Source: Bacteroidales bacterium (GTDB lineage: Bacteria; Bacteroidota; Bacteroidia; Bacteroidales; UBA932). From it: a DNA stretch of 64,000 nucleotides. A program made the position numbers and the translations under genes. The notes below the pieces were generated by a model, which worked only from the letters and a program-made list of their open reading frames with translations, had not been told where the DNA came from and did no database searches. The stretch covers positions 1-64,000 of the forward strand of contig JAFPWX010000021.1 of assembly GCA_017412645.1 (NCBI GenBank), read 5' to 3'. Positions 23,787 to 62,115 of this stretch are shown here, in pieces. Within the stretch, counting starts at the first letter, position 1, and each line of letters starts with the position of its first letter.

Positions 23787-24356
23787 ATGAAAAAAGTATT
23801 AGTACTCCTAGCTGCGGCGGCACTTATGCTGTCCTGCAGCGGAAACAGCCAGAATGGCGAGAAAGGCAAGGACGCAGACGGCGCCAAGAGCAACATCTCG
23901 ATCGGCGACAAGTTCGCCTTCGCCGGCCTCGAGAGCGACAAGCTTGTTCCCGCTTTCGCAATCGAACTCAGTGAACTCGCAACCGATCCCCGTTCCGAGA
24001 GCAACCCAAAGAAGGATGAGGCCTTCTTCTACACCGGAACGGACATCACTGCAATCCCGGTCGCCAAGGTGGACGCATGGGTCAAAAAGGTATACGCAGC
24101 CGTGGTCAAGGCGGCAGACGGAGGCAAGGTCTATGAGGCAAAGGGCATCTCCGGCGACGAACTCGGCCCCGAGGCCAAAGAGCCTTCGACCGAAAAGCAG
24201 GCGGTTACCGTGATGTACCTCTACCAGCACAATGGTACCTGGTTCAACATCTCCGCCGGCCATAAGGCTTACTTCCGCAAATTCAAGAAGGATTACGGCG
24301 ACAAGTGGATAGGCGTCGGTATCACCGTCAAGGAAATGCTCGGCTCTGTGGAATAG
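23787..24356 (+). CDS. small lipoprotein, unknown function
   Basis: 189 residues from the ATG at 23787. The lipobox is LMLSC with Cys17. It is followed by a charged linker (NSQNGEKGKDADGAK) and a compact alpha/beta domain ending in a basic segment (YFRKFKKDYGDKWIGVGITV). The residues after the Cys are S and G, with no acidic run that would strongly argue for surface export. No family was recognised. It closes the operon that starts with the 67-residue HTH gene, and a strong terminator hairpin follows at 24381. Confidence 0.8.
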   Translation: MKKVLVLLAAAALMLSCSGNSQNGEKGKDADGAKSNISIGDKFAFAGLESDKLVPAFAIELSELATDPRSESNPKKDEAFFYTGTDITAIPVAKVDAWVKKVYAAVVKAADGGKVYEAKGISGDELGPEAKEPSTEKQAVTVMYLYQHNGTWFNISAGHKAYFRKFKKDYGDKWIGVGITVKEMLGSVE

Positions 24357-24380
24357 TCTCCGTTACCCAACAAACTTTTT

Positions 24381-24415
24381 ATCGCCTGCAGATTGACTGC
24401 GGGCGATATTTTTCT
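24381..24415 (+). terminator. rho-independent terminator after the HTH-led operon
   Basis: Stem ATCGCCTGCAG / CTGCGGGCGAT (11 pairs with one G-T wobble), loop ATTGA, then ATTTTTCTT. It ends exactly where the upp -7 element begins, so the upp -33 region lies inside the hairpin. Confidence 0.8.
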
Positions 24416-24423
24416 TAACTTTG
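24416..24423 (+). promoter_or_regulatory. -7 promoter element of upp
   Basis: TAACTTTG, a perfect TAnnTTTG match, four bases before the upp ATG at 24428, which implies a leaderless transcript. TTGA at 24393-24396, 19 bases upstream, is the best -33 candidate. Confidence 0.55.
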
Positions 24424-24427
24424 TAGC

Positions 24428-25057
24428 ATGAGTCAAGTCCACATTATAGATCATCCCATGATCCAGCACAAGCTGACGATCATGCGTAAAAAGGAAACCG
24501 GTTCCAAGGATTTCCGCGAGTTGCTTAAAGAAATCGCCCTTCTCATGGGCTACGAGGTCACCAGGGACATTCCTCTGGCCGATGTCGAAATCGAAACCCC
24601 CATCTGCAAGATGACCGCCAAGGAGGTGTCCGGGCGCAAGCTCGCCATCGTTCCCATCCTCCGCGCGGGTATAGGCATGGTGGACGGTCTTCTGAGCCTC
24701 GTTCCCGTTGCAAAGGTCGGCCACATCGGCCTCTACCGCAACGAGACCACCCACAAGCCGGTGGTTTATTTCTGCAAGCTTCCCGAAGATATCCAGGACC
24801 GTCTGGTTATCGTAACTGATCCCATGCTCGCCACCGGCGGAAGCGCGTGCGACGCACTCTCCATGCTCAAGGAGCGTGGCTGCCACAACATCCGTCTCAT
24901 GTGCCTCGTGGGAGTGCCCGAGGGTATCGCCAAGGTACAGGCCGAGCATCCCGACGTGGACATCTACGTCGCCGCAGTGGACGACCACCTGAACGAGAAC
25001 GCCTATATCGTTCCCGGTCTTGGCGACGCTGGCGACCGCATCTTCGGCACCAAGTAA
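24428..25057 (+). CDS. upp: uracil phosphoribosyltransferase
   Basis: 209 residues. Makes UMP from uracil and PRPP (EC 2.4.2.9) in pyrimidine salvage. The PRPP-binding loop is [16 protein letters not shown], the [14 protein letters not shown] segment is present, and the uracil-contacting C-terminal end is [17 protein letters not shown]. Length matches the family. The following porin gene begins 19 bases downstream with no promoter or terminator between them, so upp may be co-transcribed with the steroid-type reductase genes, an unusual pairing. Confidence 0.97.
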
Positions 25058-25076
25058 AAGGCCACTTAACCACATA

Positions 25077-26282
25077 ATGAAAAAGCTGATCGTTTTTTGC
25101 CTGGCGGTCTTTGCAGCCGTTTCTGCAATGGCCCAGGGCGGTAACACCGGAGACGGCGGCGCCGACGGCGACTATATTTCCCTGGCCAAAAAGATTGCAG
25201 GCCTGGAAAAGAAGTCGGAAAACTTCAACCTGTTTGTCAACTACACTGCTGCATACCAGCAGACGCTCAATCCCTACGCTGCCGCTTTCAGGGCCAAAGC
25301 CCTGCGCCTGGAGATCAAGGGTGCGTTCGGCGAACATATCTCCTACCGCTTCCGCCACAGGCTCAACGGTTCCGGAGTCCCGCGCAGCGAAGACAATTTC
25401 GCATCTGCCACAGACATGGCCATGGTGGGTTGGCGCTTTAATGACAGGTTCGAGATACTTGGAGGCAAGATTTGCCAGTACTGGGGAGGTTTCGAGTACG
25501 ATGAGAACCCCATGTACATTTACGAGTACTGTGATCTGCTGGACCGCATGGACATTTTCTTCGGAGGAGTGGCACTCGTATACCACCCGGTGCCCAGCCA
25601 GGAGTTCGTCTTCAACGTTACCAATACCTTCAACGGCAAGTTCGAAGATGAATACGGAGCCGGCGCCGTCTCTGCCGGAGGCAACTACAGGCTCAAGGGG
25701 CTCAATTACCCCTTTACCTACATTCTGAACTGGAACGGCAGTTTCCTGAACGGTAGATTCAAAACCCGCTGGGCGTTGGGAAGCAGCGCTCTTGCAAAGG
25801 GAACCGTGACTCCAGGAACCGACGTTATCCTCGGAGAACAGCATACTTATCTGGCATATCTGGGCCAGATGCTCCATCTGCCCAAATTCCAGTTCTATCT
25901 GGACGCGTACCTGAATCATGAGGATCTGGACCGCACCCGCATCGCATCGGAACTCTTGTGCCCCGCCAGCACCTACCTTCTGAACGTGGACTACGCCAGT
26001 TTCGTGGCCAAAGCCAACTGGCAGTTCGCTCCCAAATGGAACTTCATAGGCAAGCTGATGTACGAAACAGCCAGCACGACTGATTTCAAGAATTTCCGCA
26101 GGTCTGTCGGCTTTGTCACATGCATGGAATACTATCCCGTGGATGACCAGGATCTCTGCTTCTTCCTTGCCTACGTTCGGAAAGACCGCAGTTTCTCATC
26201 AGAATGCGGCCTCCCGGCGGCATTGGCCGTCGGCGTGAATCGAGCCGAACTGGGTATCATGTACCGCATCAAAGCATACTAG
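25077..26282 (+). CDS. outer-membrane porin (OprO/OprP-like beta barrel)
   Basis: 401 residues from the ATG at 25077 (signal peptide to AMAQ). After a short helical segment, probably a coiled coil (SLAKKIAGLEKKSENF), the protein is a run of alternating amphipathic strands ending in an aromatic/polar terminus (AELGIMYRIKAY) as expected of a barrel. FRHRLNGSG, EILGGKICQYWGGFEYDENP and a Tyr-rich loop recall the phosphate-selective porin family, but selectivity cannot be read. The stop is directly followed by the 5-alpha-reductase ATG, so it may bring the hydrophobic or sulfated substrate of that operon across the outer membrane. Confidence 0.75.
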   Translation: MKKLIVFCLAVFAAVSAMAQGGNTGDGGADGDYISLAKKIAGLEKKSENFNLFVNYTAAYQQTLNPYAAAFRAKALRLEIKGAFGEHISYRFRHRLNGSGVPRSEDNFASATDMAMVGWRFNDRFEILGGKICQYWGGFEYDENPMYIYEYCDLLDRMDIFFGGVALVYHPVPSQEFVFNVTNTFNGKFEDEYGAGAVSAGGNYRLKGLNYPFTYILNWNGSFLNGRFKTRWALGSSALAKGTVTPGTDVILGEQHTYLAYLGQMLHLPKFQFYLDAYLNHEDLDRTRIASELLCPASTYLLNVDYASFVAKANWQFAPKWNFIGKLMYETASTTDFKNFRRSVGFVTCMEYYPVDDQDLCFFLAYVRKDRSFSSECGLPAALAVGVNRAELGIMYRIKAY

Positions 26283-27047
26283 ATGCAGGGAGCATTCAAC
26301 ATTTTTTTACTTGTGATGGCCATCTTTGCTGTGGTCGTGTTCGTGGCGCTCTATTTCGTGAACGCAGGTTACGGAAAATTCTACAACAAGAGCTGGGGTC
26401 CCACTCTCGACAACCATCTGGGCTGGTTCATTATGGAAGCCCCGGTATTCGTGGCCATGCTGGCTCTCTGGTGGCTTTCAGATCGCCGCAGCGACTACGT
26501 CAGGCTGGTTTTCCTGCTTCTGTTCGAGACTCATTACTTCCACCGTTCCTTCATCTTTCCGCTGCAACTCCGCGGCCATAACCGCATGCCGTGGGCCATC
26601 GTAGGCATGGGGGCCCTGTTCAACACCCTGAATGCTTTCATGCAGGGAGGCTGGATATTCTTCATTTCTCCCGCTGACATGTACCCTGTGGAATGGCTCA
26701 GAAGTCTGCCCTTCATAGCCGGCACCGTCGTGTTTGCTATGGGGATGTTCATCAATATCCAGTCCGATACCATCATACGCAATCTCCGTCAGCCGGGCGA
26801 CACCGCTCATTACCTTCCCAAGGGTGGATTGTTCCGCTACGTGGCAAGCGCCAATTATCTTGGAGAATTCATGGAATGGGCCGGTTTCGCGCTCCTCACC
26901 TGGTCGTGGGCCGGAGCCGTATTCGCTCTCTGGACATTCGCGAATCTCGCTCCCAGGGCAGCTCGTACCCATGATCTCTATGCCACTGAATTCCCCGAAG
27001 AATTCGACCCTCAGAAGGTCAAACGCATCATACCCTTCATCTATTAG
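26283..27047 (+). CDS. 3-oxo-5-alpha-steroid 4-dehydrogenase (steroid 5-alpha-reductase) homologue
   Basis: 254 residues, seven or so membrane helices, the size of human SRD5A1/2. The resemblance is strong along the length: HYFHRSFIFPLQLRG, then NIQSDTIIRNLRQPGDT, then PKGGLFRYVASANYLGEFME. E52 (in WFIMEAPVF) and Y85 (in HYFHR) occupy the places of the SRD5A2 residues that hold the 3-keto group, and N191 in the ANYLGE motif that of the NADPH-contacting Asn. The family reduces the C4-C5 double bond of 3-oxo-delta4 steroids with NADPH. It starts one base after the porin stop and precedes an OYE-type reductase and an SDR. Substrate (bile acid, sterol or another enone) is inferred. Confidence 0.9.
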   Translation: MQGAFNIFLLVMAIFAVVVFVALYFVNAGYGKFYNKSWGPTLDNHLGWFIMEAPVFVAMLALWWLSDRRSDYVRLVFLLLFETHYFHRSFIFPLQLRGHNRMPWAIVGMGALFNTLNAFMQGGWIFFISPADMYPVEWLRSLPFIAGTVVFAMGMFINIQSDTIIRNLRQPGDTAHYLPKGGLFRYVASANYLGEFMEWAGFALLTWSWAGAVFALWTFANLAPRAARTHDLYATEFPEEFDPQKVKRIIPFIY

Positions 27048-27048
27048 A

Positions 27049-28290
27049 ATGGAATCCCCCATCTTCACTCCGGTAAAAATCGGCCCCGTGACACTTCGCA
27101 ACCGCGTTATCCGTTCGGCTGCGTTCGAGAATATGGCCTACGGGAACAGCCCTTCGCAGGACCTTTACGACTATCATGTGGCCGTGGCCCGTGGCGGAGT
27201 GGGAATGACAACCCTTGCATATGCGTCGGTGAACCGCAGCGGCCTGTCGTTCGACGGTCAGCTTTGGATGCGCGAAGAGATAGTACCGGGCCTGAAACGC
27301 ATCACTGATGCGGTCCACGCCGAGGGCGCCAAGTGTTCCATACAGCTGGGCCACTGCGGCAACATGACCCATCGCGCCACCTGCGGATGCACCCCCGTAG
27401 GGGCATCGAGCGGATTCAACATCTACTCCCCCACGATAGTCCGGGGCCTCAAGGTCTCCGAACTGGATGCCCTTGTAGAAGACTTCGGCCATGCTGTGGA
27501 CCTTGCCCGCGAGGCCGGTTTCGACTGCGTGGAAATCCACGCTGGTCACGGCTACCTCATCAGCCAGTTCCTTTCGCCCTACACCAATCATCGGCACGAC
27601 GAATACGGAGGGTCGCTCCAGAATCGTATGCGCCTCATGCAGAGGGTGATACGCTGTGTGCTCGAGCATGCCGGCAGAGACATGGGCGTGATCGTAAAGA
27701 TGAACATGCACGACGGCTTCCGCGGAGGAATGCAGCGGGCCGAGTGCCTGGAAGTTGCTCGCGAGCTGGAGCGTCTTGGAGTGCACGCCCTTGTGCTGTC
27801 GGCCGGCTTCGTGAGTCGCGCCCCAATGGAAGTGATGCGCGGCGCCATGCCAATCCGCACCTTCGCGCATTACATGGACCCCCGCAAGTTCTGGTGGCTC
27901 CAGGCCATGCTTTACCTTGCCGGCCATATGCTCATCCCCACCGTTCCGTTCAAGGAAGGCTATTTCCTGGAAGACGCCATGGAGTTCCGTGCAGCGGTGA
28001 AGTTGCCACTCATCTACGTGGGCGGCCTCAATACAAAAGAAAAGATGGAAGAGGTGCTGGCAGCGGGCTTCCAGGGTCTTCAGATGGCCAGGGCGCTAGT
28101 GCGCGACACCGACTTCGTGAACAAACTCCGTACGGGCGAGACAACATGCAGCGGCTGCGGCCATTCCAATTACTGCATCGCCCGCATGTACACCCTTGAA
28201 ATGAAATGCAATCGCTGCGTGGAAGGCCTTCCTGCCTCACTTCGCCGCGAAATAGATAAGGCTGAAAAGAGATGGAAGGATACACCATAG
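27049..28290 (+). CDS. old-yellow-enzyme-family FMN reductase with C-terminal cysteine cluster
   Basis: 413 residues. TIM-barrel FMN domain with the diagnostic VEIHAGHGYLISQFLSP (162-178) and the YGGSLQNR segment. The catalytic Tyr is Y169. After the barrel comes a cysteine group C367, C370, C376, C387, C390 (CxxC-x5-C-x10-CxxC), which could bind a [4Fe-4S] cluster as in the BaiCD / 2,4-dienoyl-CoA reductase branch. The spacing is not the standard one and the second, FAD/NAD-binding half of that branch is missing. Such enzymes reduce enones, including 3-oxo-delta4 steroids to the 5-beta form. It lies between the 5-alpha-reductase and SDR genes, overlapping the latter by 19 bases. Confidence 0.88.
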   Translation: MESPIFTPVKIGPVTLRNRVIRSAAFENMAYGNSPSQDLYDYHVAVARGGVGMTTLAYASVNRSGLSFDGQLWMREEIVPGLKRITDAVHAEGAKCSIQLGHCGNMTHRATCGCTPVGASSGFNIYSPTIVRGLKVSELDALVEDFGHAVDLAREAGFDCVEIHAGHGYLISQFLSPYTNHRHDEYGGSLQNRMRLMQRVIRCVLEHAGRDMGVIVKMNMHDGFRGGMQRAECLEVARELERLGVHALVLSAGFVSRAPMEVMRGAMPIRTFAHYMDPRKFWWLQAMLYLAGHMLIPTVPFKEGYFLEDAMEFRAAVKLPLIYVGGLNTKEKMEEVLAAGFQGLQMARALVRDTDFVNKLRTGETTCSGCGHSNYCIARMYTLEMKCNRCVEGLPASLRREIDKAEKRWKDTP

Positions 28291-29090
28291 TTACCGGAGC
28301 TACCGGAGGAATGGGAGCGGCCGCAGTGGAGGCGCTGGCGTCTGCCGGCCGGCCGGTGCTCATGGCCTGCCGGAGCGAGGCCAAGGCGCAGGCTCTGCGC
28401 GATCGGGTGATGCAGCGCTTCCCAGGTGCACAACTCGGCTTCGAGCTCCTGGACCTGTCTTCCATCGCATCCGTAAAGCGCTTTGCAGACGCCGTCCCGG
28501 AAGGCATAGCCGGGTTGTTCAACAACGCCGGCACAATGTCGCGGAGCGGCTTCGCCCTCACGGATGACGCTTTGGAATCCACCTTTGAGGTAAACTATTT
28601 CGGCCCCTGGCTGCTCACCAATCTGCTTCTGCCCAAAATGGCTCCGGACGCAGCCGTGGTGAACATGGTGTCGCTCAGCAGCAAGTATGTCAGCTTTTCC
28701 GAAGAGTCCCTGCAGGCGTCGGCCGAAAGCTTCACACAACTCGGCTCGTATGCCGCCAGCAAGCGGGCACTCATCTCCTTCAGCTGCGAACTTGCCAGGC
28801 GGCATCCTGAACTCCGGGTGAATATGGCCGACCCCGGAATCGTCGGCACGGACATACTCAATCTGGGCCGCTGGTTCGACCCGCTGCAGCGTGCCATCTT
28901 CAAGCCATTCTGCAAAACGCCTTCGCAAGGCGTGAAGCCTGCTCTCCGGGCACTGGAAGCGCAATGCTCCTGCCGTTATTTCGTCGGCCATGGCAACAAA
29001 GCCCTCCCCCGCCGCTATGATACTCCCGAACTCGACTGCCGGGTCTGGGAGGCTACGGAACGCATTTTGAAAGGAATCCAGAGCCGATGA
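28272..29090 (+). CDS. short-chain dehydrogenase/reductase (retinol/hydroxysteroid dehydrogenase-like)
   Basis: 272 residues, classical SDR. Cofactor motif TGATGGMG (8-15), NNAG (84-87), catalytic Ser near 134-137 (VSLSSKY), and Y160 and K164 of YxxxK in GSYAASKRALISF. R34 after the second strand suggests NADP(H). The overall layout resembles retinol dehydrogenases and some 3-beta-hydroxysteroid dehydrogenases. It starts within the last codons of the OYE gene and ends in an ATGA overlap with the CotH gene, so it belongs to the same operon. Interconversion of a 3-oxo and 3-hydroxy group of the same substrate is the natural guess. Confidence 0.9.
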   Translation: MEGYTIVTGATGGMGAAAVEALASAGRPVLMACRSEAKAQALRDRVMQRFPGAQLGFELLDLSSIASVKRFADAVPEGIAGLFNNAGTMSRSGFALTDDALESTFEVNYFGPWLLTNLLLPKMAPDAAVVNMVSLSSKYVSFSEESLQASAESFTQLGSYAASKRALISFSCELARRHPELRVNMADPGIVGTDILNLGRWFDPLQRAIFKPFCKTPSQGVKPALRALEAQCSCRYFVGHGNKALPRRYDTPELDCRVWEATERILKGIQSR

Positions 29091-30514
29091 AACGTCTTTT
29101 CGCATTTTTTCTCCTGGCCGTTCCGGTGCTGTTCACGCAGTGCCGGCAGGAACCGTTGTTCGTGGATCCGGAGAAGGCGGAAAACGGGGAAGCAACTGAT
29201 CCTAATGGAGAGAGCGACGACGCCGATGAAGTGAACTGGGAGGCGGCGTTCGACTATGTGTACGACAGTTCCGTGATTCCGGAGATTCACGTGACGGTGA
29301 GCGAGGAGCAGTGGAACAAGCTTCTTGCCGCTTTCGACAAGAACGCCGACACACAGGAATTCGTGGAATGCGACGTCCGCTATTTGAAGGGCAAGGAGAT
29401 TGTTCATGTTAGCCGGGCTGGGCTCAGGCTTAAGGGTAACACGTCCCGCAGGCGGCCAATGGACGGGAACGGCGCCTGGCATCACTGTCACTACAGCGTA
29501 GATTTCCACAAATACGTAAAGGATGCCGCTCACACACTTAAAGGTGTTCGCAGAGTGGATCTCAAATGGTTCAAAGACGACCCAGCCTACGTTCGCGAAA
29601 TCTACTGCTACGACCTTTTCCGTCGCTACGGAGTATGGACGGCCGTGAACGACATCTACTCACGCCTTTGGATAAAAGTCGGAAATAGGGCAGAAGCCTA
29701 CCTTGGCGTGTATGGAATGCTCGAGCACATCGACAAAAACTATCTCCGCGCCCGAAAAAAGGATTTCGGTGACGAAGACGGCAACCTCTGGAAGTGCCGC
29801 TACCCCGCCGACCTCAAGAGCCCCGACGCCAACATCGGAATAGACGAGAACAAGAGTACCCACACCTACGAGCTGAAGACCAACAAGGAAGAGGGATTCT
29901 CTGCCGCCAAGGCCCAGCTTCAGGATTTTATACGGAAACTGAACTCCCTTTCCGGCAGCGCTTTCAATGAATGGATAGCTTCTGTGATGGATGTGGATCT
30001 GCTGTTACGCACCTACGCTGTGAACGTTGCCGTGGGCATGTGGGACGACCACTGGAACAATAGCAACAATTACTACCTGTACTTCAGTAACACCGACTCC
30101 GGCTCGTACAAGGTTTTCTTCATCCCATACGATTACGACAACACTCTCGGCACTTCCGCCGACTGCGGAGTACAGAGTGACTCCGGACGGCAGGATCCCC
30201 TCTCCTGGGGGCACAGCAGCTATCCGCTAATGACAAAGGTACTTGCTAATTCAGTCTGGAGAGAAAGCTATAAAGGGTATCTGCGGGAACTCTGTGCCGA
30301 AGGCGGGCTCTTTCACTGGAGGAGTTCGGATTCCAGAATCAAGGCATGGCAGGCCACCATCAAAGATTACGTGTCCAACGACACGGGGGAAGATATGGCT
30401 ATCAAGGACCGTCCGGCCGGCTGGGGCAATCATTATGAATATCGCATCATGGACACCGGCTCATCGAACAATTACTTCAAGGTAAAAGCAGCTGCGGTAG
30501 CTGCGATGCCTTAA
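29087..30514 (+). CDS. CotH-kinase family lipoprotein
   Basis: 475 residues. Lipobox LFTQC gives a lipoprotein, followed by an acidic linker (ENGEATDPNGESDDADE) typical of surface-exposed lipoproteins in this phylum. The CotH domain begins at about residue 65 (IPEIHVTVSEEQW) and includes RLKGNTSRR, YLGVYGMLEHIDKNYL and the metal-binding pair D349/D351 in IPYDYDNTLG. CotH proteins are atypical protein kinases. In other bacteria they are linked to spore coats or cellulosomes. The start overlaps the SDR stop (ATGA), which puts it in the reductase operon. Its stop codon overlaps that of a second CotH gene on the other strand. The target is unknown. Confidence 0.87.
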   Translation: MKRLFAFFLLAVPVLFTQCRQEPLFVDPEKAENGEATDPNGESDDADEVNWEAAFDYVYDSSVIPEIHVTVSEEQWNKLLAAFDKNADTQEFVECDVRYLKGKEIVHVSRAGLRLKGNTSRRRPMDGNGAWHHCHYSVDFHKYVKDAAHTLKGVRRVDLKWFKDDPAYVREIYCYDLFRRYGVWTAVNDIYSRLWIKVGNRAEAYLGVYGMLEHIDKNYLRARKKDFGDEDGNLWKCRYPADLKSPDANIGIDENKSTHTYELKTNKEEGFSAAKAQLQDFIRKLNSLSGSAFNEWIASVMDVDLLLRTYAVNVAVGMWDDHWNNSNNYYLYFSNTDSGSYKVFFIPYDYDNTLGTSADCGVQSDSGRQDPLSWGHSSYPLMTKVLANSVWRESYKGYLRELCAEGGLFHWRSSDSRIKAWQATIKDYVSNDTGEDMAIKDRPAGWGNHYEYRIMDTGSSNNYFKVKAAAVAAMP

Positions 30515-32412
30515 AACTTGTTGATCTCGGTGTTAAGCCACTCCAGACGCGAAGAATAGAAGCGTTTCAGATAATCCACTTCCGCAGCGTAAGTGCCCAA
30601 CACGACGTAGTTGGGCCATACGTATGTATAAAGGATAGGCCAGCGATCGAAATTCCTATCGGCGGCTTCCTTCACTCTCTCATAGCAGGAATCGATATAG
30701 GCCGGCACTTCGCTTAGCTTAGGATATACCTCATTCCAACGAGCCTTTACTTTCGCCAGGAAGGCAGGGTCCTTCATCAGGTAATAATACCAACCAGTTC
30801 CGTAACCTCCGCGGCCGTTGTAACGTATGAACCAGCCTTCAGACGTATTTGTAAGACCGTAATAATCATCAAAGTAATCACAGTTACCAAGAGTAAAATC
30901 GAAATCCCAGACATGGTACATTTCGAGTTTCTTACCCTTTTCTTTGGTAATGAAGGTGCTTTTGCGAAGATTGCCGTCGACGTTTTTCGTAAGTTCCTGA
31001 ATAATGTAGTTGTTCACCCAGGAATCCACATCGATATAACGGGCATATCCACTTGCAGGATCCGCATAATACGATGACTTGAGTGCGTTTTCGAAGCTTT
31101 TGAAATAATTCTTCACGTAACTCCGTTGAGCCGAAGTGGGTTCTTCAGGATCTTTAAACATCATCGGGACGCCCATATCAGTCCACCAGCAGCACTTTTC
31201 ATCCTGAGCCTCCTCAATCTCCAGATAATAATCTCCTGTTACGGCATCTCCACTGTTGTCGTTAGGCCCAGGCGGCGTTATGTCCACCCTGTGCTTGGCT
31301 ACTTCCTTATGATCCATGAAGTTATACAGCCCCAGGTACGATTCATTCAGATAGACCTCCACATCGAAAATCGCAGGAGTCCAACTGAATTCCAGTATCT
31401 CGGATACCTTCATAGCCACCGTATTGCGCAGAAGGGACTTATCCGCATAATTTGCGACCAATATCCAGTCCTTGTTTTTGGGAAGACCGAACATAGGCGC
31501 CTTTTCGTTCAATTTGATACGATAAGGTTTCTTGGGGAAACTATTCCATGTCGCATTTCCGCGACCTCTGATAAGCATGGGCGCTTCAAACTTTCTAACA
31601 TCCCATAGGCTCAGTCCTTCGTCCAGGATAGTGATATCGCCTGGAACCCAGGTAACCTTATCCTGTATTGGACGGGAGTTCTGTGTGCGTATATAAACCG
31701 TTGGGAAGCCACTGCCCTTCAGAACAACCTTGTATTTGAGCGTAGTGCCGTCGTAGAGCGTAAGCACATATTCAATCACTTCCGAGAAATCCTGTATCGT
31801 CTTGCGGCTCGTCTGTTCCACACCTCCCACAGAGAGAGACTTCCCTCTGTAGGAAAAATCAGGTATCAGCTTATAAGAATTGCAATCCTGAGGCAAATCA
31901 GCCATCAGACGCAATCCGTCACGGCTCGGGAGCAGATCCGATGTCAAGTTCTTATTATCTGCTGCGAGGAAAGTAAAATGGAAAAGGTTTGCTTCTTCGG
32001 TATTGGGAATCCGGAGTTCTCTGCCATTGCCCAACCAGAAATACAAGTCTGTAGTATTGTATGCGATACATACAATCGGAGAATCGCTGTCAGGGCAGGA
32101 ACGGTCTACCTCAATTCCACTCAGAATACGGTTGTAGGTCCATTCCCCTGTTCTCGGATCAACCGCCAGTGTTGGGAGATCCCTTATCGTACAGTCAAAT
32201 ACTTTAGGTCCATCCGGGGGGATAATCACAGAAGTATTGTCAGAGAAAACAAAGACGATGCCGTCGTCTGAATCGACGGCACCGTTGAACAAAGCTGAGG
32301 AGTAGTATTTCTCCGTCAGCGGAAAAGAATAAACCACTACATGTTCCTCTTCCTCCTTGACGCAGGAAAGCGCAAGGAGGGAGAAGAACAATATGATCAA
32401 ATATTTTTTCAA
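30511..32412 (-). CDS. second CotH-kinase family lipoprotein, in the PUL
   Basis: 633 residues. Lipobox ALSC (Cys17) followed by VKEEEEH, an acidic surface-export-type tail. About 250 residues of beta-rich domain precede the CotH part, which starts near RGRGNATWNSFPKKPYRIKL and continues with LNESYLGLYNFMDHKEV. The metal-binding pair is D503/D505 in VWDFDFTLGN. It is the last gene of the minus-strand SusC/SusD operon, with an ATGA overlap with the preceding gene. It differs clearly from the other CotH protein that converges on it, so they are not a recent duplication. Confidence 0.87.
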   Translation of the reverse strand: MKKYLIILFFSLLALSCVKEEEEHVVVYSFPLTEKYYSSALFNGAVDSDDGIVFVFSDNTSVIIPPDGPKVFDCTIRDLPTLAVDPRTGEWTYNRILSGIEVDRSCPDSDSPIVCIAYNTTDLYFWLGNGRELRIPNTEEANLFHFTFLAADNKNLTSDLLPSRDGLRLMADLPQDCNSYKLIPDFSYRGKSLSVGGVEQTSRKTIQDFSEVIEYVLTLYDGTTLKYKVVLKGSGFPTVYIRTQNSRPIQDKVTWVPGDITILDEGLSLWDVRKFEAPMLIRGRGNATWNSFPKKPYRIKLNEKAPMFGLPKNKDWILVANYADKSLLRNTVAMKVSEILEFSWTPAIFDVEVYLNESYLGLYNFMDHKEVAKHRVDITPPGPNDNSGDAVTGDYYLEIEEAQDEKCCWWTDMGVPMMFKDPEEPTSAQRSYVKNYFKSFENALKSSYYADPASGYARYIDVDSWVNNYIIQELTKNVDGNLRKSTFITKEKGKKLEMYHVWDFDFTLGNCDYFDDYYGLTNTSEGWFIRYNGRGGYGTGWYYYLMKDPAFLAKVKARWNEVYPKLSEVPAYIDSCYERVKEAADRNFDRWPILYTYVWPNYVVLGTYAAEVDYLKRFYSSRLEWLNTEINKF

Positions 32413-34652
32413 TCTGAGAATTCAGATGCTGTCAGCCACACACTACCGTCTGCATCAACTGCCAGAGCTGAAGGAGCATACCAGGAGCCATTGATTTCGT
32501 CACAGGTGATAACCTTCTCTCCCGACCACGGGCCTTCAAGCTTGTCCGCGTCACGGTAGATGATACCATGCTGCCAGAAAGAACGGTAGAACATCATGAA
32601 CCTCTGGTACTTGGGATTCCATATTATGGCGGGTTCACTCATCGCTCCCTTGGTCACCTGGCCACGATCGCCAACCAAAGGATCTGTGTTCCAGGTAATG
32701 CCGTCCCAACGCTCCCATTTAGCAATATCGTCAATATCGCTGGATGTCTTTGCAATGCGGGAGACGAAGAAGGCGTCGGTATCGACATCTGTACGTCCAG
32801 CCCAACAATGTACCATGCAGATATAATCATCCTTCACGCAGAAAGATGCCTGCGAGTAGTAGGGATCTGTGCTCTGGGGACCTGCAGTCCATGTTGCTCC
32901 GTTGTCGGAGGATACAAGGAATCCGTTGTAGGCATTTGTCCACCGGGCAAGTTTGGGATTGTCCACATAATCATCGCTCTGCTTCGCAGCATAGTGGACA
33001 TATATCTTGTCACCTACGTAGAAACCACCGTTGATAATGATTTCGATAGCATTGCCGGACTTGTTGAGAATGGGCGTCGGAGCTGCGCCAGCGGCATATT
33101 TGCTCAAGGCGAGACCCGCGCTGAAATCTACATCTGATGCTATTGCAAGGGTATTCTCAAAAGATGATTCCTGGATACTCGGGTTACTCAATGCAACGGC
33201 AACATTACCAGCGCCATCGGGCCAAGCGACCACCTTGCCATTACCAGAAACCGAAGCTGCGTTATTTGCAATCATGCCCTTAAATTCGACAGTAGTCGGT
33301 TTAGTGCTCTTCTTGTCATAGCCCTTGGGGATAAGACGGATGTCATCGAGGTAGAGACGATTCCACCAGGCACCGGCACTCCATCCATTGAGACCTTCAC
33401 CCCAGTCGCCGAAGAACAGATATCCCCACCAGTCAGCGCCGGTATTGAACTCCATGGAAAGTTGTTCCCATGCGCCTCCGAAACCGCCATTCTGAGTCCA
33501 GTCCTCGCCCGGGATTTCATGTCCTGTATTGGCTTCACCTTTACAGTTTACACCCATGAAGCAATCCACATTATTTGCATCTGCCCAGACAGTAAACACG
33601 TAGTCGGTATTGACGGTCATTGGAACAGTCTGCTCCATAAGATTCCAGAATCTTTTATTAGAATCAACTGTACGCAGTGCTGCAGCACGCTCCCCACTAT
33701 GAGACTTGTAGATGTCACCCTCGTTTTCCGCATAAACGAGATCAACCGGATTCGCACGGTTCCAATCAACCGAGGTAACCCAGCGGGTAGCAAAGTTGAT
33801 CGGTCTGTCCGGATATTCCTCAAAGCCCGGCTCAGAAACAAGGTTGAATTCATCTTCAGCGAAACTGACCTTGAAAACACCGGTTTTCTCGATTGTGGAC
33901 GGGAAAATCACATCCGCATCACCTAAGGAGCCGAAATCGGTCACCTTGGCGGCGGAGAGGGTCTTGTCACCGTCAATCTTCACCACGGCACGCTTCTGGT
34001 CAGTGGTGATGACAGTCACGGTGATATTTGATATCTGCCCGGGAATGGCGCTAAAATACAGGACTCCTTTCAAGTTCCCTCCAAGGGAAATAGTGGAGAC
34101 AGTGTTGGCGCCGGCCTCGGCCACGAAAGGACTGGTAAGAGGCACGTTCACCTCGCCAGCCAGAGCGCCAGTAGCGGAGATTTCTATTGCAGCAGGAGCA
34201 GCACTGAGGCTAACGGTGAGTTTACCAAAAGCAAGAGCACTCTTGAAGACCCAGTCTTCCTTACCTTTGGTGGAATTTGCCACCAGAATCACGTTTGACT
34301 TGTCAATACCTCCTGCGACCACAGTCTGCGAAGCAGCAACTGCCATCTTAACCTTTCCGTCGAAACGAGCGGAAGAAGCGTTATAGGGATACAGAATCTG
34401 AAGATCTGTATTCTCACAAGCAACTCCTTCAAAACCATCCACATACGTGAATTTGTTGTTGGCCTTTCCATCAAAGACGGATACCGCTTCACCGGATTTC
34501 CACGTGAAGGTAGGGCCACCCGGTGCCAGTTCAAAAGAAGCTTCAGTGTTGGCGTGAGTGTCCACGGGTGCAACACTGATGGGTTCGTCTTTCTTTTGAC
34601 AGGCAACCACTGCTACAAAAGTTGCTGCCAAAGCCACAAAGAATCTTTTCAT
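32409..34652 (-). CDS. lipoprotein: fimbrillin-like N-terminus fused to sandwich and propeller domains
   Basis: 747 residues. Lipobox VVAC (Cys19) then QKKDE. Residues about 30-245 resemble fimbrillin/Mfa-like modules (FTWKSGEAVSVFDGKANNKF, LQILYPYNA). A beta-sandwich follows at about 255-455 (WVTSVDWNRA to GYDKKS), a type often found on glycan-binding proteins, and then a C-terminal region with NGFLVSSDNGATWTAG and MSEPAIIWNPKYQRFMMFYR that looks like blades of a GH32/GH43-type five-bladed propeller. Acidic catalytic residues cannot be assigned. It is in the PUL operon, 31 bases after the next propeller gene, and is probably a surface glycan-binding protein or glycosidase. Confidence 0.7.
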   Translation of the reverse strand: MKRFFVALAATFVAVVACQKKDEPISVAPVDTHANTEASFELAPGGPTFTWKSGEAVSVFDGKANNKFTYVDGFEGVACENTDLQILYPYNASSARFDGKVKMAVAASQTVVAGGIDKSNVILVANSTKGKEDWVFKSALAFGKLTVSLSAAPAAIEISATGALAGEVNVPLTSPFVAEAGANTVSTISLGGNLKGVLYFSAIPGQISNITVTVITTDQKRAVVKIDGDKTLSAAKVTDFGSLGDADVIFPSTIEKTGVFKVSFAEDEFNLVSEPGFEEYPDRPINFATRWVTSVDWNRANPVDLVYAENEGDIYKSHSGERAAALRTVDSNKRFWNLMEQTVPMTVNTDYVFTVWADANNVDCFMGVNCKGEANTGHEIPGEDWTQNGGFGGAWEQLSMEFNTGADWWGYLFFGDWGEGLNGWSAGAWWNRLYLDDIRLIPKGYDKKSTKPTTVEFKGMIANNAASVSGNGKVVAWPDGAGNVAVALSNPSIQESSFENTLAIASDVDFSAGLALSKYAAGAAPTPILNKSGNAIEIIINGGFYVGDKIYVHYAAKQSDDYVDNPKLARWTNAYNGFLVSSDNGATWTAGPQSTDPYYSQASFCVKDDYICMVHCWAGRTDVDTDAFFVSRIAKTSSDIDDIAKWERWDGITWNTDPLVGDRGQVTKGAMSEPAIIWNPKYQRFMMFYRSFWQHGIIYRDADKLEGPWSGEKVITCDEINGSWYAPSALAVDADGSVWLTASEFSD

Positions 34653-38840: not shown

Positions 38841-38880
38841 TATTCTGCTGCTATTGTGTTTCTATTCTGCTGCTATTGTG
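38841..38880. repeat. 18-base tandem direct repeat at the susD stop
   Basis: TATTCTGCTGCTATTGTG occurs at 38841-38858 and 38863-38880, a period of 22 bases. The second copy covers the last six codons of susD. The first fills the gap between susD and the GH116 gene. The intergenic region therefore arose by duplication of the susD end. Confidence 0.9.
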
Positions 38881-40718
38881 GTCCATCCCAGATTCTGAAC
38901 AAGCTCACGTCTCTGGTGCTTGTCGATTTCGTTCTGGTCGATGGGGAAGAAATAGTGCTTGGGAGACTCGAAGACACGGTCTTCTACCTTTATCCTCTTG
39001 TAGAATGAAGGATCGTTCAGAGCGGTACCGGAATAGATATCCATCGAATGGATGGGGACACCCTGAGTCTGCGGACCTTCCAGCCAACGGCGGGTATCGA
39101 AGAAACGATGCACCTCGAAAGCCAGCTCGATACGGCGCTCGTGCTTGATTTTGTCTCGCATTTCGTCCTTGCTAAGGCCCGCCGGAAGATCGGGAAGACC
39201 CGCACGCTCGCGAATGGCATTGATATAGGGATACGCATTGGTCGGACCTTCGGATTCGTTTATGGCCTCGGCGGCATTCAGGTATATCTCACCCAGACGG
39301 ATATAAATCCACATCTGCTTAGGAGTATACTGCCACGGAATACGCTCGGGATTGTGGAGCTTCTTCATAAGATATCCGGTCTTGCAATAATCGGATCCAG
39401 CGTTGTTCTTTCCGTCGATACCTGTGTACCAGAACTCGTTGTAGTGAGGCTCTGTCCAGTTCGACGAACGGGTTGTCTTCCACAACGCTCCAGCGAAGTT
39501 GATAGACGCGTAGAAACGGGGCTCGCGATTGATATACATATTTGATACACCGGCAGGCCAGCGATCCATGCCTGATGCGTCTGCTGCAGCCACGAACCCG
39601 GTTTCGGTATAACCTGAAGCAGGGTTGATGATGGGAGTGAGCCCATCGTCCGTATAACCGGTAATCGGAGTTGAACCGTCCTCCATCTCATAGGCGTCCA
39701 CCATCTCCTGAGTAGGATCAAAAATCGAGAAACAGCCAAAGGAAATGGGATCGGAGCAGTTGAGCCAGTGATCATAGGTATTGATGTTCTTAGCCCACAG
39801 CACTTCCTGATTCCACACGTCTATGAAAATGCTCTGATAGTTCTTCACAGGATTCGTGGGGTATTTATTGTAGAGCCCGTATCCGGCAGCTTCTGCAGTT
39901 TCAATGCATTTCTTGGCGGCATCTGCTGCCTTTACCCATTTAGAAGGATCGGGAGTCTGTGGAATAAGGTAACTGCCGTCAACGGGGTCTTTCAGATCCG
40001 CGAAGAGCGGATCACCGTTGTAGAGAGGAGATGCCAAATAAAGCAAAGCTCTGGACTTCAGACCAAGGGCTGATATGCGTGTGGCTCTTCCTGTGTCGGT
40101 TCCCGGCCACTTATCCATGTCTATCAGATAGGTGGCAGCACGGTCACAGTCGTCGCAAATGAACTTGATGACCTCATCGACGTTAGATCTACGTATGGAA
40201 AGCATGTCTTCGGCCGGATCCAGCGCGTGGTCTACAAGGGGAACAGGACCATAGGCACGGAAAACCAGAAAATGGAAGAAAGCACGAAGGAAATAGGCCT
40301 CTCCCTTCCAGTGACGGATCTCATCGGCTGTTGCAGGGCAGTTATCAACATTCTCAAGGAACATGTTCACCTTGCGAAGGGCCATGTAAGACTCCGGCCA
40401 GACTTGCGTCCTGTGAATATCAGTGGGATTCCATCCACCGCTGTTGATCTGGTGTGCATATGCACCGCCAAAAGCGCACTCCATCTCGTCGGAGCCTGCG
40501 GTATAAGGATTTCTCCAGGCGCCGCCATCGTCTGCCATATTGGCCTCGGTGGGAATCCAGGAATAAGTATGTGTGAGGAAATCCCTGGTATAGATGCGGT
40601 TCGCAAACACGTCCGGAATGGTTAAGTTCTCATCCGGAGCCATGTCAAGATACTTGCTGCAGGAAGCTCCTGCCAGAAGGATTGTTGCGAAGAATAATAT
40701 GTTGATTATCTTTTTCAT
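38862..40718 (-). CDS. SusD/RagB-family glycan-binding lipoprotein
   Basis: 618 residues. Lipobox AGASC (Cys20) followed by SKYLDMAPDENLTIPDVF, the typical SusD start. TPR-type helices carry YFLRAFFHFLVFRAYGPVPLVD, and the C-terminal region holds RLGEIYLNAAEAINE and DKIKHERRIELAFEVHRFFDTRRW. SusD proteins cap the paired SusC porin and deliver oligosaccharides to it. The gene follows susC by 12 bases. The ligand is unknown, though the GH116 and propeller enzymes downstream suggest a glycan with beta-linked terminal sugars. Confidence 0.96.
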   Translation of the reverse strand: MKKIINILFFATILLAGASCSKYLDMAPDENLTIPDVFANRIYTRDFLTHTYSWIPTEANMADDGGAWRNPYTAGSDEMECAFGGAYAHQINSGGWNPTDIHRTQVWPESYMALRKVNMFLENVDNCPATADEIRHWKGEAYFLRAFFHFLVFRAYGPVPLVDHALDPAEDMLSIRRSNVDEVIKFICDDCDRAATYLIDMDKWPGTDTGRATRISALGLKSRALLYLASPLYNGDPLFADLKDPVDGSYLIPQTPDPSKWVKAADAAKKCIETAEAAGYGLYNKYPTNPVKNYQSIFIDVWNQEVLWAKNINTYDHWLNCSDPISFGCFSIFDPTQEMVDAYEMEDGSTPITGYTDDGLTPIINPASGYTETGFVAAADASGMDRWPAGVSNMYINREPRFYASINFAGALWKTTRSSNWTEPHYNEFWYTGIDGKNNAGSDYCKTGYLMKKLHNPERIPWQYTPKQMWIYIRLGEIYLNAAEAINESEGPTNAYPYINAIRERAGLPDLPAGLSKDEMRDKIKHERRIELAFEVHRFFDTRRWLEGPQTQGVPIHSMDIYSGTALNDPSFYKRIKVEDRVFESPKHYFFPIDQNEIDKHQRRELVQNLGWTTIAAE

Positions 40719-43904: not shown

Positions 43905-44393
43905 TCAGCGGATTAACTGGTATGCCAGGCGCTCGTCGCCCGATTCCAGATAGATGATGCCACAGTAGGCAAAGCCGTAGCGGTCGATGCAGTGCTGCAT
44001 AATACGGTTGTCGCAATGAGTGTCGACTCGGATGTTGGGATCGCGCTCAAAACACCAGTCCATAACGGTCTTGAATACCCCGTGTACCTCGGGGTAACTG
44101 CCGATGCGGTGCACTACGTGATACGGCAGAGCGTCGTCCTGCCATGCTCCGCCGTCTATGCGGGCATAAGTGGGTTCCGGAGAGGCGATGAAGGCGAAAT
44201 AGCCCACGATTCGACCGTCTTCCAACACCACGAAACCGTTGCCCTTTGCGATATCTTCCAATATCACCTCTTCCGAAGGATACCCGCCAACCCACTGCCC
44301 GTCGTTGCCGGACGCACGCATAATACCCTTGGCCGCGGCCAGGACTGCCATTATCCCGGCAAGGTCTTCGTTATGTGCGGAACGGATGTTCAT
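43905..44393 (-). CDS. GNAT-family N-acetyltransferase
   Basis: 162 residues from the ATG at 44393 (MNIRSAHNEDLAGIMAVL). The acetyl-CoA fold is visible: VVLEDGRIVGYFAFI, then HRIGSYPEVHGVFKTVMDWCF, and the C-terminal CIDRYGFAYCGIIYL. Many homologues are annotated only as GNAT, and the substrate is unknown. It is a single gene, divergent from the operon at 44466. A TATCTTTG element ends five bases before its ATG. A start at an ATG eight codons upstream would fall within that promoter element and is less likely. Confidence 0.9.
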   Translation of the reverse strand: MNIRSAHNEDLAGIMAVLAAAKGIMRASGNDGQWVGGYPSEEVILEDIAKGNGFVVLEDGRIVGYFAFIASPEPTYARIDGGAWQDDALPYHVVHRIGSYPEVHGVFKTVMDWCFERDPNIRVDTHCDNRIMQHCIDRYGFAYCGIIYLESGDERLAYQLIR

Positions 44394-44398
44394 GGAAG

Positions 44399-44406
44399 CA
44401 AAGATA
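44399..44406 (-). promoter_or_regulatory. -7 promoter element of the GNAT gene
   Basis: TATCTTTG on the minus strand, five bases before the ATG at 44393, predicting a leaderless or nearly leaderless mRNA. Confidence 0.5.
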
Positions 44407-44438
44407 TAGCATTTCATCGGATTTACGATAAGATTCGC

Positions 44439-44446
44439 TATCTTTG
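44439..44446 (+). promoter_or_regulatory. -7 promoter element of the DUF1295-to-TSCPD operon
   Basis: TATCTTTG on the plus strand, 19 bases before the ATG at 44466. GGAGG at 44446-44450 lies 15 bases before that ATG and may serve as a distant ribosome binding site. No clear -33. Confidence 0.5.
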
Positions 44447-44465
44447 GAGGATTCAATTTTTTAGA

Positions 44466-45317
44466 ATGAAAGCTGATTACTCCAAAGGCGTAAGTATCGC
44501 TATCATTACGGGCATTTACATCATTGCCGCAGCTGCGGGCGTATTCGTATTCAAGCGCTCTGTCGCAGTAATGCCGGAGGTTCTGGCTCTGCTGCTGGCC
44601 GACATAGCCGCCACCGTCGTCACCTGGGGCTTCGGCCTCGTTTACGAGAATGTGTCGGTGTACGACCCTTACTGGAGCGTGATCCCTCCGGTTGTATTTA
44701 CCATCTGGGCGTTCTACAAGGCCTGCTGGACACTGCCGGTTATCCTGCTGCTGGTGGCGGTATGGTACTGGGGCATACGTCTCACCGGCAACTGGGCCCA
44801 TACGTTCAAGGGTCTCGCCCATGAAGACTGGCGCTATACCAAATACCGCGAAAGTCAGCCCGGACTGTTTTTCCACCTGATCAACTTCTTCGGCCTGAAC
44901 ATGATGCCCACGCTGCTGGTGTTTGCATGCATGCTGCCTGGACTCGGCTTGTTCGAGGCCGATGCTCCAGCCAATCTGCTCACGTTCCTTGGCTTCGTCG
45001 TCTGTCTCTTCTCCGCCACCATCCAACTGGTTGCGGATACACAGGCGCAACGCTTCCGTCTCGCCAATCCCGGGCAAGTCTGCAATGTTGGTCTATGGAA
45101 GCACGGCCGGCATCCGAACTACTTCGGAGAAGTCCAGATGTGGTGGGGAGTTTGGCTGATGTACGCATCCCTGTGTGGCTTTGACTGGCTCATTCTGGCA
45201 CCTATCGCCATGACGGCACTATTCCTCTTCATAAGTATCCCATTGATGGAAAGCCGTCAGTTGCAGAATAAACCCGCCTACGCGGAATACAGGAAAAATA
45301 CAAGAATACTGATATGA
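44466..45317 (+). CDS. DUF1295 membrane protein (steroid-reductase/ICMT-like fold)
   Basis: 283 residues with about seven membrane helices. The C-terminal block VGLWKHGRHPNYFGEVQMWW is the DUF1295 signature, related to the NADPH/SAM-binding end of steroid reductases and isoprenylcysteine methyltransferases. FGLVYENVSVYDPYWSVIPP is the typical N-terminal motif of the group. No bacterial substrate is established for this family to my knowledge. It lacks the HYFHR motif seen in the 5-alpha-reductase at 26283, so it is not a second copy of that enzyme. First gene of a six-gene operon, overlapping the channel gene by four bases. Confidence 0.88.
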   Translation: MKADYSKGVSIAIITGIYIIAAAAGVFVFKRSVAVMPEVLALLLADIAATVVTWGFGLVYENVSVYDPYWSVIPPVVFTIWAFYKACWTLPVILLLVAVWYWGIRLTGNWAHTFKGLAHEDWRYTKYRESQPGLFFHLINFFGLNMMPTLLVFACMLPGLGLFEADAPANLLTFLGFVVCLFSATIQLVADTQAQRFRLANPGQVCNVGLWKHGRHPNYFGEVQMWWGVWLMYASLCGFDWLILAPIAMTALFLFISIPLMESRQLQNKPAYAEYRKNTRILI

Positions 45318-46045
45318 GAAAGAAGATTTACGGCTTACTTGAATCTGCAAGAGACGGCGACTGGTACGACATCCTGATGCTAGTGGCCATCCTGGTCAGC
45401 GTAGTTCCGCTGATGTTCGTGGAGGAGTATCCGGTGTTCAGGGTTATCGAGATCGTTACGGTGTCCATCTTCATAGTGGACTACATCCTTCGCTGGATAA
45501 CTGCGGACTACCGCCTGCAAAAGGGCGGCTGGTCGTTCGTCATATACCCGTTCACCGCATGGGCCGTCATCGACCTGCTATCCATCCTTCCGGCACTCAG
45601 TCTCATCAACCGCGGATTCAAGATTCTGCGAATCACCCGTCTGCTCAGGATACTCCGCCTTTTCAAACTCATACGCTATTCCGACAAGATAGAGGTGCTT
45701 GGAAAGGTTATCCGAAAGGAAAAGGGCGTGCTGCTTACTGTGCTGGGAATCGCAGTATTCTACGTGTTTGTAACCGCGCTCATCATGTTCAACGTGGAAC
45801 CGCACGTGAACCCGGTAACCGGCGCCACTACCTTCGCCACCTTCTTCGACGCTTTGTACTGGGCTACGGTTACACTAACCACCGTTGGCTACGGCGACAT
45901 GATTCCCGCGACCGACATCGGCCGTTTCGTGAGCATGCTCTCGTCCCTCTTCGGAGTGGCCATCATCGCCCTGCCCTCCGGTGTTATCACCGCCAGCTAT
46001 CTGGAAGAACTACGCAACCTCAAAAAGAATAAGAAAGACGAATGA
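45314..46045 (+). CDS. voltage-gated-type potassium channel
   Basis: 243 residues, six transmembrane segments and a pore loop. The K+ filter is TTVGYGDM (189-196). S4 carries regularly spaced positive residues (RGFKILRITRLLRILRLFKLIR, R100 to R121; given here as the 20-residue core from 102 in sequence order with its flanks), so it is a Kv-like voltage sensor. The protein ends soon after S6 with a short Lys-rich tail, so no RCK or cyclic-nucleotide domain regulates it. Four-base overlaps on both sides place it between the DUF1295 and YccF genes. Confidence 0.93.
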   Translation: MRKKIYGLLESARDGDWYDILMLVAILVSVVPLMFVEEYPVFRVIEIVTVSIFIVDYILRWITADYRLQKGGWSFVIYPFTAWAVIDLLSILPALSLINRGFKILRITRLLRILRLFKLIRYSDKIEVLGKVIRKEKGVLLTVLGIAVFYVFVTALIMFNVEPHVNPVTGATTFATFFDALYWATVTLTTVGYGDMIPATDIGRFVSMLSSLFGVAIIALPSGVITASYLEELRNLKKNKKDE

Positions 46046-49950: not shown

Positions 49951-50316
49951 ATGGCCGAAGAAAGCGCAGCACGCAAATGGAAACTCTCCGACGTAGGAGT
50001 CTTCCTGAAGAACAGCCTCCTGGCAATAGTCAGGGGTCAGTTCCTCATGCGCCTGCGCATCGACGAATACTTCATACATATAGTTTATGTGTTCTTCCTC
50101 ATGGCAATGCTCATCCTCATCAGCCTGGGAGTCGAGAACTCCCTCAACAAGGTGGAAGAGAACAAGCAGACCCTCAAGGAACTCCGCATAATCTGGTCCG
50201 ACAAGACCTTTGAAATGGCCGGCGTGAGCAGCCGGAGCGAAGTTGAACGCAAGCTCTCGGAAATGGGTTCTAAGCTCGGAGAACCCGACCGGAGCGCAAC
50301 CGTACTGAACAAATGA
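49951..50316 (+). CDS. ftsL: FtsL-like cell division protein
   Basis: 121 residues: a basic cytoplasmic N-terminus, one transmembrane helix at about 47-63 (IVYVFFLMAMLILISLGVE), then a short periplasmic coiled coil (SLNKVEENKQTLKELRI). Sequence conservation in FtsL is low, so the call rests on this topology and on position between rsmH and ftsI. It should form the FtsQLB-type complex that activates FtsWI, though no ftsB gene is nearby. The stop overlaps the ftsI start by four bases. Confidence 0.85.
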   Translation: MAEESAARKWKLSDVGVFLKNSLLAIVRGQFLMRLRIDEYFIHIVYVFFLMAMLILISLGVENSLNKVEENKQTLKELRIIWSDKTFEMAGVSSRSEVERKLSEMGSKLGEPDRSATVLNK

Positions 50317-56078: not shown

Positions 56079-56084
56079 GGAATC

Positions 56085-60667: not shown

Positions 60668-60675
60668 TTAACCAT

Positions 60676-62103: not shown

Positions 62104-62115
62104 AAAACAGCGTAT

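Follow-up and report, generated by a model that had tools for sequence, protein, structure and literature searches.

The question raised by six consecutive genes in a stretch of DNA from an uncultured Bacteroidales bacterium (UBA932; assembly GCA_017412645.1, contig JAFPWX010000021.1, forward-strand positions 1 to 64,000) is whether they work together in the reduction of steroids or bile acids, and which of them would then be needed. This 64,000-nucleotide stretch, hereafter the window, lies on contig C19; the genome measures 1.8 Mb and is divided into 26 contigs. The original prediction, made from the sequence alone, took the whole group for a reduction operon: genes for a porin, a steroid 5-alpha-reductase (5AR), an old yellow enzyme-type flavoenzyme (OYE) and a short-chain dehydrogenase/reductase (SDR), with upp in front and a CotH-kinase gene behind. 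We find that the prediction holds in part: a 5AR-OYE-SDR steroid module is likely, and the porin, upp and CotH genes find no support as parts of it. The core, at 26283-29090, is in our judgement quite probably a lineage-specific copy of a Bacteroidota steroid A-ring module, predicted to invert the A/B ring junction and to cap C3; that bile acids are its natural substrate is unproven.

The core repeats a cluster of gut Bacteroidota

The three core genes lie on the + strand and are closely packed. The 5AR gene (26283-27047; Steroid_dh, PF02544, 141 bits against a cut-off of 22.6), encoding a membrane steroid 5-alpha-reductase homologue, is followed after 1 bp by the OYE gene (27049-28290; Oxidored_FMN, PF00724, 186 bits), whose 413-residue product has an HAGH-GY motif and a Cys cluster; the OYE gene in turn overlaps by 19 bp the SDR gene (28272-29090; adh_short, 87 bits), which holds the position of the Parabacteroides SDR gene and encodes a protein of the type we call SDR2, a candidate 3-beta-hydroxysteroid dehydrogenase (3-beta-HSDH).

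A cluster of this kind has been described. Strains of Parabacteroides merdae, Odoribacter laneus and B. dorei were reported by Honda and colleagues to turn 3-oxo-delta-4-lithocholic acid (3-oxo-delta-4-LCA) into isoalloLCA (as related in PMC10382948); in the same account, the 5AR gene of P. merdae is clustered with genes for a predicted 3-beta-HSDH and an NADH:flavin oxidoreductase, and its disruption prevented formation of allo-LCA derivatives. Clusters of 5AR, flavin oxidoreductase and 3-beta-HSDH genes are described more generally in Bacteroidetes (PMC12697870), and Bacteroidetes isolates from chicken caecum are reported to encode 5AR, except for two Odoribacter isolates and P. distasonis (PMC6069880). 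The window shares the three enzyme classes of the isoallo-bile-acid cluster of P. merdae and Odoribacteraceae (5AR, 5-beta-reductase and 3-beta-HSDH), as had been proposed: the match is in kind with the published cluster and in order with Parabacteroides loci, where 5AR, OYE and SDR genes likewise follow each other on one strand. The comparison was made through Parabacteroides loci other than that of P. merdae, whose tested genes are represented here by their published description. Four loci of the Parabacteroides group (L101-L104) encode 5ARs 55-57% and OYEs 64% identical to those of the window. The 5AR-OYE-SDR core is not new: it is a further copy of a cluster already described in gut Bacteroidota, and with the window its known carriers come to include an uncultured Bacteroidales lineage.

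Compared across the Bacteroidales, the core recurs. Loci were sampled for carrying this 5AR, and each count is restricted to those with enough flanking sequence. From 140 loci fetched we counted 129 whose 5AR was distinct and had 220 residues or more, leaving out duplicates, short 5ARs and L098, which has no 5AR. They came from three sources, contributing 34, 15 and 80 respectively: 40 loci hand-picked among the lower-scoring matches in the order (about 118-156 bits), and hence a part of that group; 20 further loci, L098 among them; and the best 80 of 587 matches to a query led by a Parabacteroides-group 5AR, from which the carriers with species or genus names are taken. In 99 of 122 other loci, no more than 600 bp separate 5AR from an OYE gene that follows it on the same strand, a pairing far beyond chance, and an SDR gene of either type is near 5AR in 92 of 110. 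Both OYE and SDR are present in 83 of the 110 (35 with both SDR types, 27 with SDR1 only and 21 with SDR2 only, the last being the window's arrangement). Among the best 80 of 587 the named carriers are Parabacteroides massiliensis, Phocaeicola massiliensis, Coprobacter secundus, Heminiphilus faecis, Barnesiella and an Odoribacter metagenome-assembled genome (MAG); the order seen in the window is that of P. massiliensis (L109, which shares a contig with L102), Parabacteroides sp. (L110 and L111) and Phocaeicola massiliensis (L179), and the Odoribacter MAG (L112) has it together with an extra SDR1. Of 393 genomes sampled from the order, 162 have a Steroid_dh match, 155 of them above the cut-off, though DUF1295-like relatives may be among the weak matches; within the family, 62 of 149 sampled genomes have a match to the window's 5AR.

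Phylogeny places the window's reductase inside an OYE-linked clade. In a 5AR tree of 160 rows, a quick one that carries a long-branch warning and has the Shimodaira-Hasegawa-like approximate likelihood ratio test (SH-aLRT) as its sole measure of support, the window falls in a starred set of nine rows (SH-aLRT 98), all OYE-linked, the other eight coming from its own family; sets of 10 and 25 rows are starred as well (98 and 97). The outgroup consisted of the 30 top-scoring loci of the order (L003-L032), for each of which no more than about 1.5 kb of flank was covered; in these flanks no OYE match was found, and a weak SDR match in L010 alone.

The protein sequences point the same way. Over about 240 aligned residues the 5AR matches the solved chains of PbSRD5A (PDB 7c83, E 1.5e-48) and human SRD5A2 (7bw1, E 2.6e-39); its match to very-long-chain enoyl-CoA reductase is much weaker, at 37 bits against 169 and 139 for the steroid enzymes. 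When the catalytic and NADPH-binding positions given in PMC7815742 were mapped onto an alignment of 160 5AR sequences, E52 and Y85 were seen to align with E57 and Y91 of human SRD5A2, as predicted, and to be invariant in 160 of 160; the ANYLGE cofactor motif is also as predicted. The window's 5AR thus shares with PbSRD5A and SRD5A2 a sequence family, the catalytic Glu and Tyr, and seven of the eight NADPH residues checked (N160, D164, R171, N193, E197, R227, H231 and Y235). It differs from them in having Met for the Gln before the catalytic Glu, and Thr at the H231 position; the 130 gut-type rows, the window's among them, have I, L, V or T there, and the 30 outgroup rows mostly His.

The OYE matches the flavin mononucleotide (FMN) barrel of 2,4-dienoyl-CoA reductase and YqjM-type enzymes, and its H164, H167, Y169, C370, C376 and C387 are invariant in 48 aligned relatives. 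With BaiCD and 2,4-dienoyl-CoA reductase (1ps9) it has in common the N-terminal FMN barrel, the active-site Tyr and a Cys-rich stretch after the barrel; where 1ps9 has MGSE, the alignment gives HAGH in the window's enzyme. The clostridial 5-beta-reductase ci2350 is described as OYE-type too, with a corresponding active-site Tyr (Arp et al. 2025, PMC12238238). N166 and S171 of ci2350 are reported there as positions that separate steroid-hormone from bile-acid reductases; by alignment their counterparts in the window are G168 and Q173, which fit neither group. In the SDR, S134, Y160 and K164 are intact, and invariant in 70 of 70 SDR2 sequences. A homologue of SDR1, the second SDR that goes with the module in relatives, lies on another contig of the same genome (57% identical), unlinked to the module (C21, 38153-38884); the window's cluster is therefore the family arrangement in a reduced and re-packed form.

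The Cys cluster of the OYE shows a further pattern. Among 116 OYEs, counted without regard to relatedness, a fourth Cys near the three invariant ones stands before the core in 50, after it in 47, on both sides in 7 and on neither in 12; in this stretch, residues 367-390 of the window's OYE, the fourth ligand of a metal or Fe-S site would seem to have moved from one side of the core to the other.

Proposed function and the points that weigh against it

The window's core likely acts as a steroid A-ring module. The OYE would interconvert 3-oxo-5-beta and 3-oxo-delta-4 steroids, the membrane 5AR would reduce the delta-4 bond with NADPH to give the flat 5-alpha form, and the SDR would turn the 3-ketone into an alcohol, probably the 3-beta form; the net effect would be an inverted A/B ring junction and a capped C3, as in the conversion of 3-oxoLCA to isoalloLCA. 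Reported effects of isoalloLCA are inhibition of Gram-positive pathogens (PMC10382948) and promotion of regulatory T cells (PMC11271093).

Several observations weigh against this assignment. The signature motif of characterised enzymes is described as Q-E-Y (PMC7815742); the equivalent of Q56 in the window's 5AR is M51, giving M-E-Y, with Met in 160 of 160 rows, and in human SRD5A2 the changes Q56A and Q56L are reported to have abolished activity (PMC7815742). M51 lowers strict membership of the characterised SRD5A group, not homology to it, and Met at this position is probably compatible with activity, because the Parabacteroides-group 5ARs carry it and that genus has a reported bile-acid 5AR. 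The OYE does not reach the cut-off of the BaiCD model NF041087 (204 bits against 825); its best stretch covers positions 4-257 of 642, the N-terminal part. The C-terminal flavin adenine dinucleotide (FAD)/NAD(P)H domain of BaiCD-like enzymes is not present in it: the protein ends at 413 residues, compared with 642 positions in the BaiCD model and 671 residues in 1ps9. The other 49 OYEs likewise are without this C-terminal half, judged by their length (405-486 residues, the longest probably reflecting an over-long open reading frame (ORF) start). The SDR is just 34-35% identical to its Parabacteroides counterparts, and because of this we only infer its 3-beta stereochemistry. As for the loci, 23 of 122 have no OYE within 600 bp of 5AR, five having one farther off and 18 none in the locus; and no P. 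merdae or O. laneus record is among the best 80 of 587 matches, so that the two genera are represented in the comparison by other Parabacteroides and a single Odoribacter MAG. Finally, relatives from the reticulum and abomasum, where little bile is expected, carry 5AR-OYE-SDR1.

Which substrate?

We treat this last point as a lead: since little bile is expected in the reticulum and abomasum, the natural substrate may be broader than bile acids. The substrates of the same three enzymes could be sterols and steroids from plants or the diet, or other cyclic enones, the bile-acid conversion of Parabacteroides being one use of a broader module, and we consider this a serious possibility, if short of probable. 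Six of the best 80 loci have forestomach or abomasum titles (L141, L151, L163, L173, L177 and L181), two of them through RUG names, which we take to mean rumen. Five of the six have 5AR-OYE and four have 5AR-OYE-SDR1; L151, L173, L177 and L181 are in the 21-row clade that also holds the window (SH-aLRT 83, not starred). PbSRD5A is reported to prefer progesterone (PMC7815742), and P. merdae and Odoribacter are listed in a review, with one reference behind the entry, as androgen 5-alpha-reductase bacteria. Against this, a sampling organ in a title is no proof of residence, reflux and re-ingestion being known to occur; SDR2, the Parabacteroides type that the window has, is shown by none of the six forestomach or abomasum loci; and the Bacteroidota conversions that the reviews describe in detail are those of bile acids. 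A bile-salt hydrolase was sought in the window's genome as a sign of bile use; the one CBAH-family match (45.6 bits against a cut-off of 20.4, over 160 of 316 positions) was counted neither for nor against it. The wide spread of the core, reticulum- and abomasum-titled loci included, makes its natural substrate a testable question. That question gives the locus its interest, together with the peculiarities of its 5AR and OYE, which are common to the aligned relatives and not special to the window.

A more pointed and rather unlikely version would make the core a general A/B-ring inverter of gut Bacteroidales, whose original substrate was plant or dietary sterol enones: the 5AR would work with an M-E-Y site, the OYE would be a domain-lacking dehydrogenase passing its electrons to an external carrier, and bile acids would be a later use in human gut species.

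We think it improbable that the 5AR is instead a lipid or polyprenol reductase and that the cluster works on membrane lipids of the cell itself. Relatives in the Steroid_dh family do act on such substrates in eukaryotes, Met does replace the conserved Gln, and the 30 higher-scoring 5ARs of the order are without an OYE match in about 1.5 kb of flank; but the nearest solved chains are the steroid enzymes, by the margin over very-long-chain enoyl-CoA reductase given above, and the Parabacteroides homologues with the same Met come from a genus for which 5AR activity on bile acids has been reported.

Porin, upp and CotH are probably incidental to the module

With the core read as a steroid A-ring module, the remaining question is what belongs to it. 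The six same-strand genes are where they had been predicted, as ORFs and Pfam matches confirm: outside the core these are upp, for uracil phosphoribosyltransferase (24428-25057; UPRTase in Pfam, 267 bits; TIGR01091, 297 bits against a cut-off of 208), a gene for a Porin_O_P outer-membrane porin (25077-26282; PF07396, 125 bits) and one for a CotH-kinase family protein (29087-30514; PF08757, 127 bits), all on the + strand. All six ORFs begin with ATG, and the gaps from upp to CotH are, in order, +19, 0, +1, -19 and -4 bp; the tight packing claimed for porin, 5AR, OYE and SDR is thus real (0, +1 and -19 bp), the TAG stop of the porin gene directly abutting the ATG of 5AR.

Conservation gives a different picture of the three outer genes. 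In tblastn searches with the window's own proteins (E up to 1e-6), by which divergent members could be missed, a porin was found within 2 kb upstream of 5AR in 0 of 118 loci, upp anywhere in the locus in 0 of 98, and CotH anywhere in the locus in 0 of 98. On these grounds the dedicated porin, upp and CotH were rejected as module parts; upp and CotH are probably incidental. Porin matches occur in 37 of 149 genomes of the family, and a close one solely in G471, a genome of the same genus (51-54% identical; others at most 37%). There the porin gene follows DcuB and asparaginase genes, in a DcuB-asparaginase operon, and a search of the 149 family genomes with the window's 5AR found no match in G471. 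The gene upstream of 5AR varies among close relatives: in some it is SDR1, in others it encodes a GFO/IDH/MocA oxidoreductase or a PCMD protein. The porin makes more sense as a neighbour, probably incidental and brought in by local rearrangement. A working role for it in the operon, passing steroid acids across the outer membrane, has its abutment on the 5AR start and the lack of a TAnnTTTG motif between upp and CotH in its favour, and is very doubtful all the same, given that tblastn with the window's porin, which could miss divergent ones, found none within 2 kb upstream of 5AR in 118 loci, and given the DcuB-asparaginase setting of its nearest homologue and the known role of Porin_O_P proteins as anion channels.

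A single transcript from upp to CotH is plausible, because a terminator-like hairpin (24380-24408) and the only + strand copy of TAnnTTTG within 24340-30600, a promoter-like motif at 24416-24423 that we take to be the Bacteroidales promoter consensus, stand immediately 5' of upp and make 24380-24427 (+) a candidate transcript start. The terminator scan as a whole was at chance level (12 found, against 10.6 +/- 4.3 in shuffles), and two weaker + strand sites lie within 5AR and OYE.

Other arrangements and neighbouring genes

The window is unlike the Parabacteroides-group locus L101 in having no efflux or regulator genes directly upstream, and in its extra porin, upp and CotH. In L101, probably of the genus Parabacteroides, a TetR-OEP-HlyD-AcrB efflux set (by Pfam) and a response-regulator-like gene precede 5AR; such a set would fit a detergent-like substrate and speaks for the bile side, and the window is without one. 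The same regulator-like gene directly 5' of 5AR, with an AcrB-type pump gene upstream of it, is seen in L101, L103, L104, L109, L111 and L035, and in L110 the regulator is present and the contig ends before the pump would begin; regulation and export of the substrate are a possible role for this pair.

Two further arrangements recur. Six distinct loci (L105, L146, L158, L161, L172 and L174) have 5AR and then SDR2 directly, with no OYE in the locus, and four of these (L105, L161, L172 and L174) are one clade in the tree. A gene with a PCMD domain (PF13201) is present in 20 of 106 loci, 8 of which have it on the opposite strand (examples are L089-L091, L094-L096, L039, L139, L141, L145, L163 and L182; the copies in L039, L089 and L090 are confirmed by Pfam); a search of the window's genome, made without a positive control, found no PCMD-domain protein.

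Beyond the six genes, a second CotH gene (30511-32412) is convergent with the first, so that the two face each other, and upstream of it on the minus strand are genes for a DUF4185 protein (32409-34652) and then SusD (38862-40718). A DUF1295 protein, of another steroid-reductase-like membrane family, is encoded at 43992-45317 (+; 144 bits) and is the genome's weak second Steroid_dh match; an ion channel gene (45314-46045) lies next to it. Farther along, at 50313-63357, is a cell-wall and division cluster with genes for a penicillin-binding protein, MraY, MurD, FtsW, a further Mur ligase and FtsZ.

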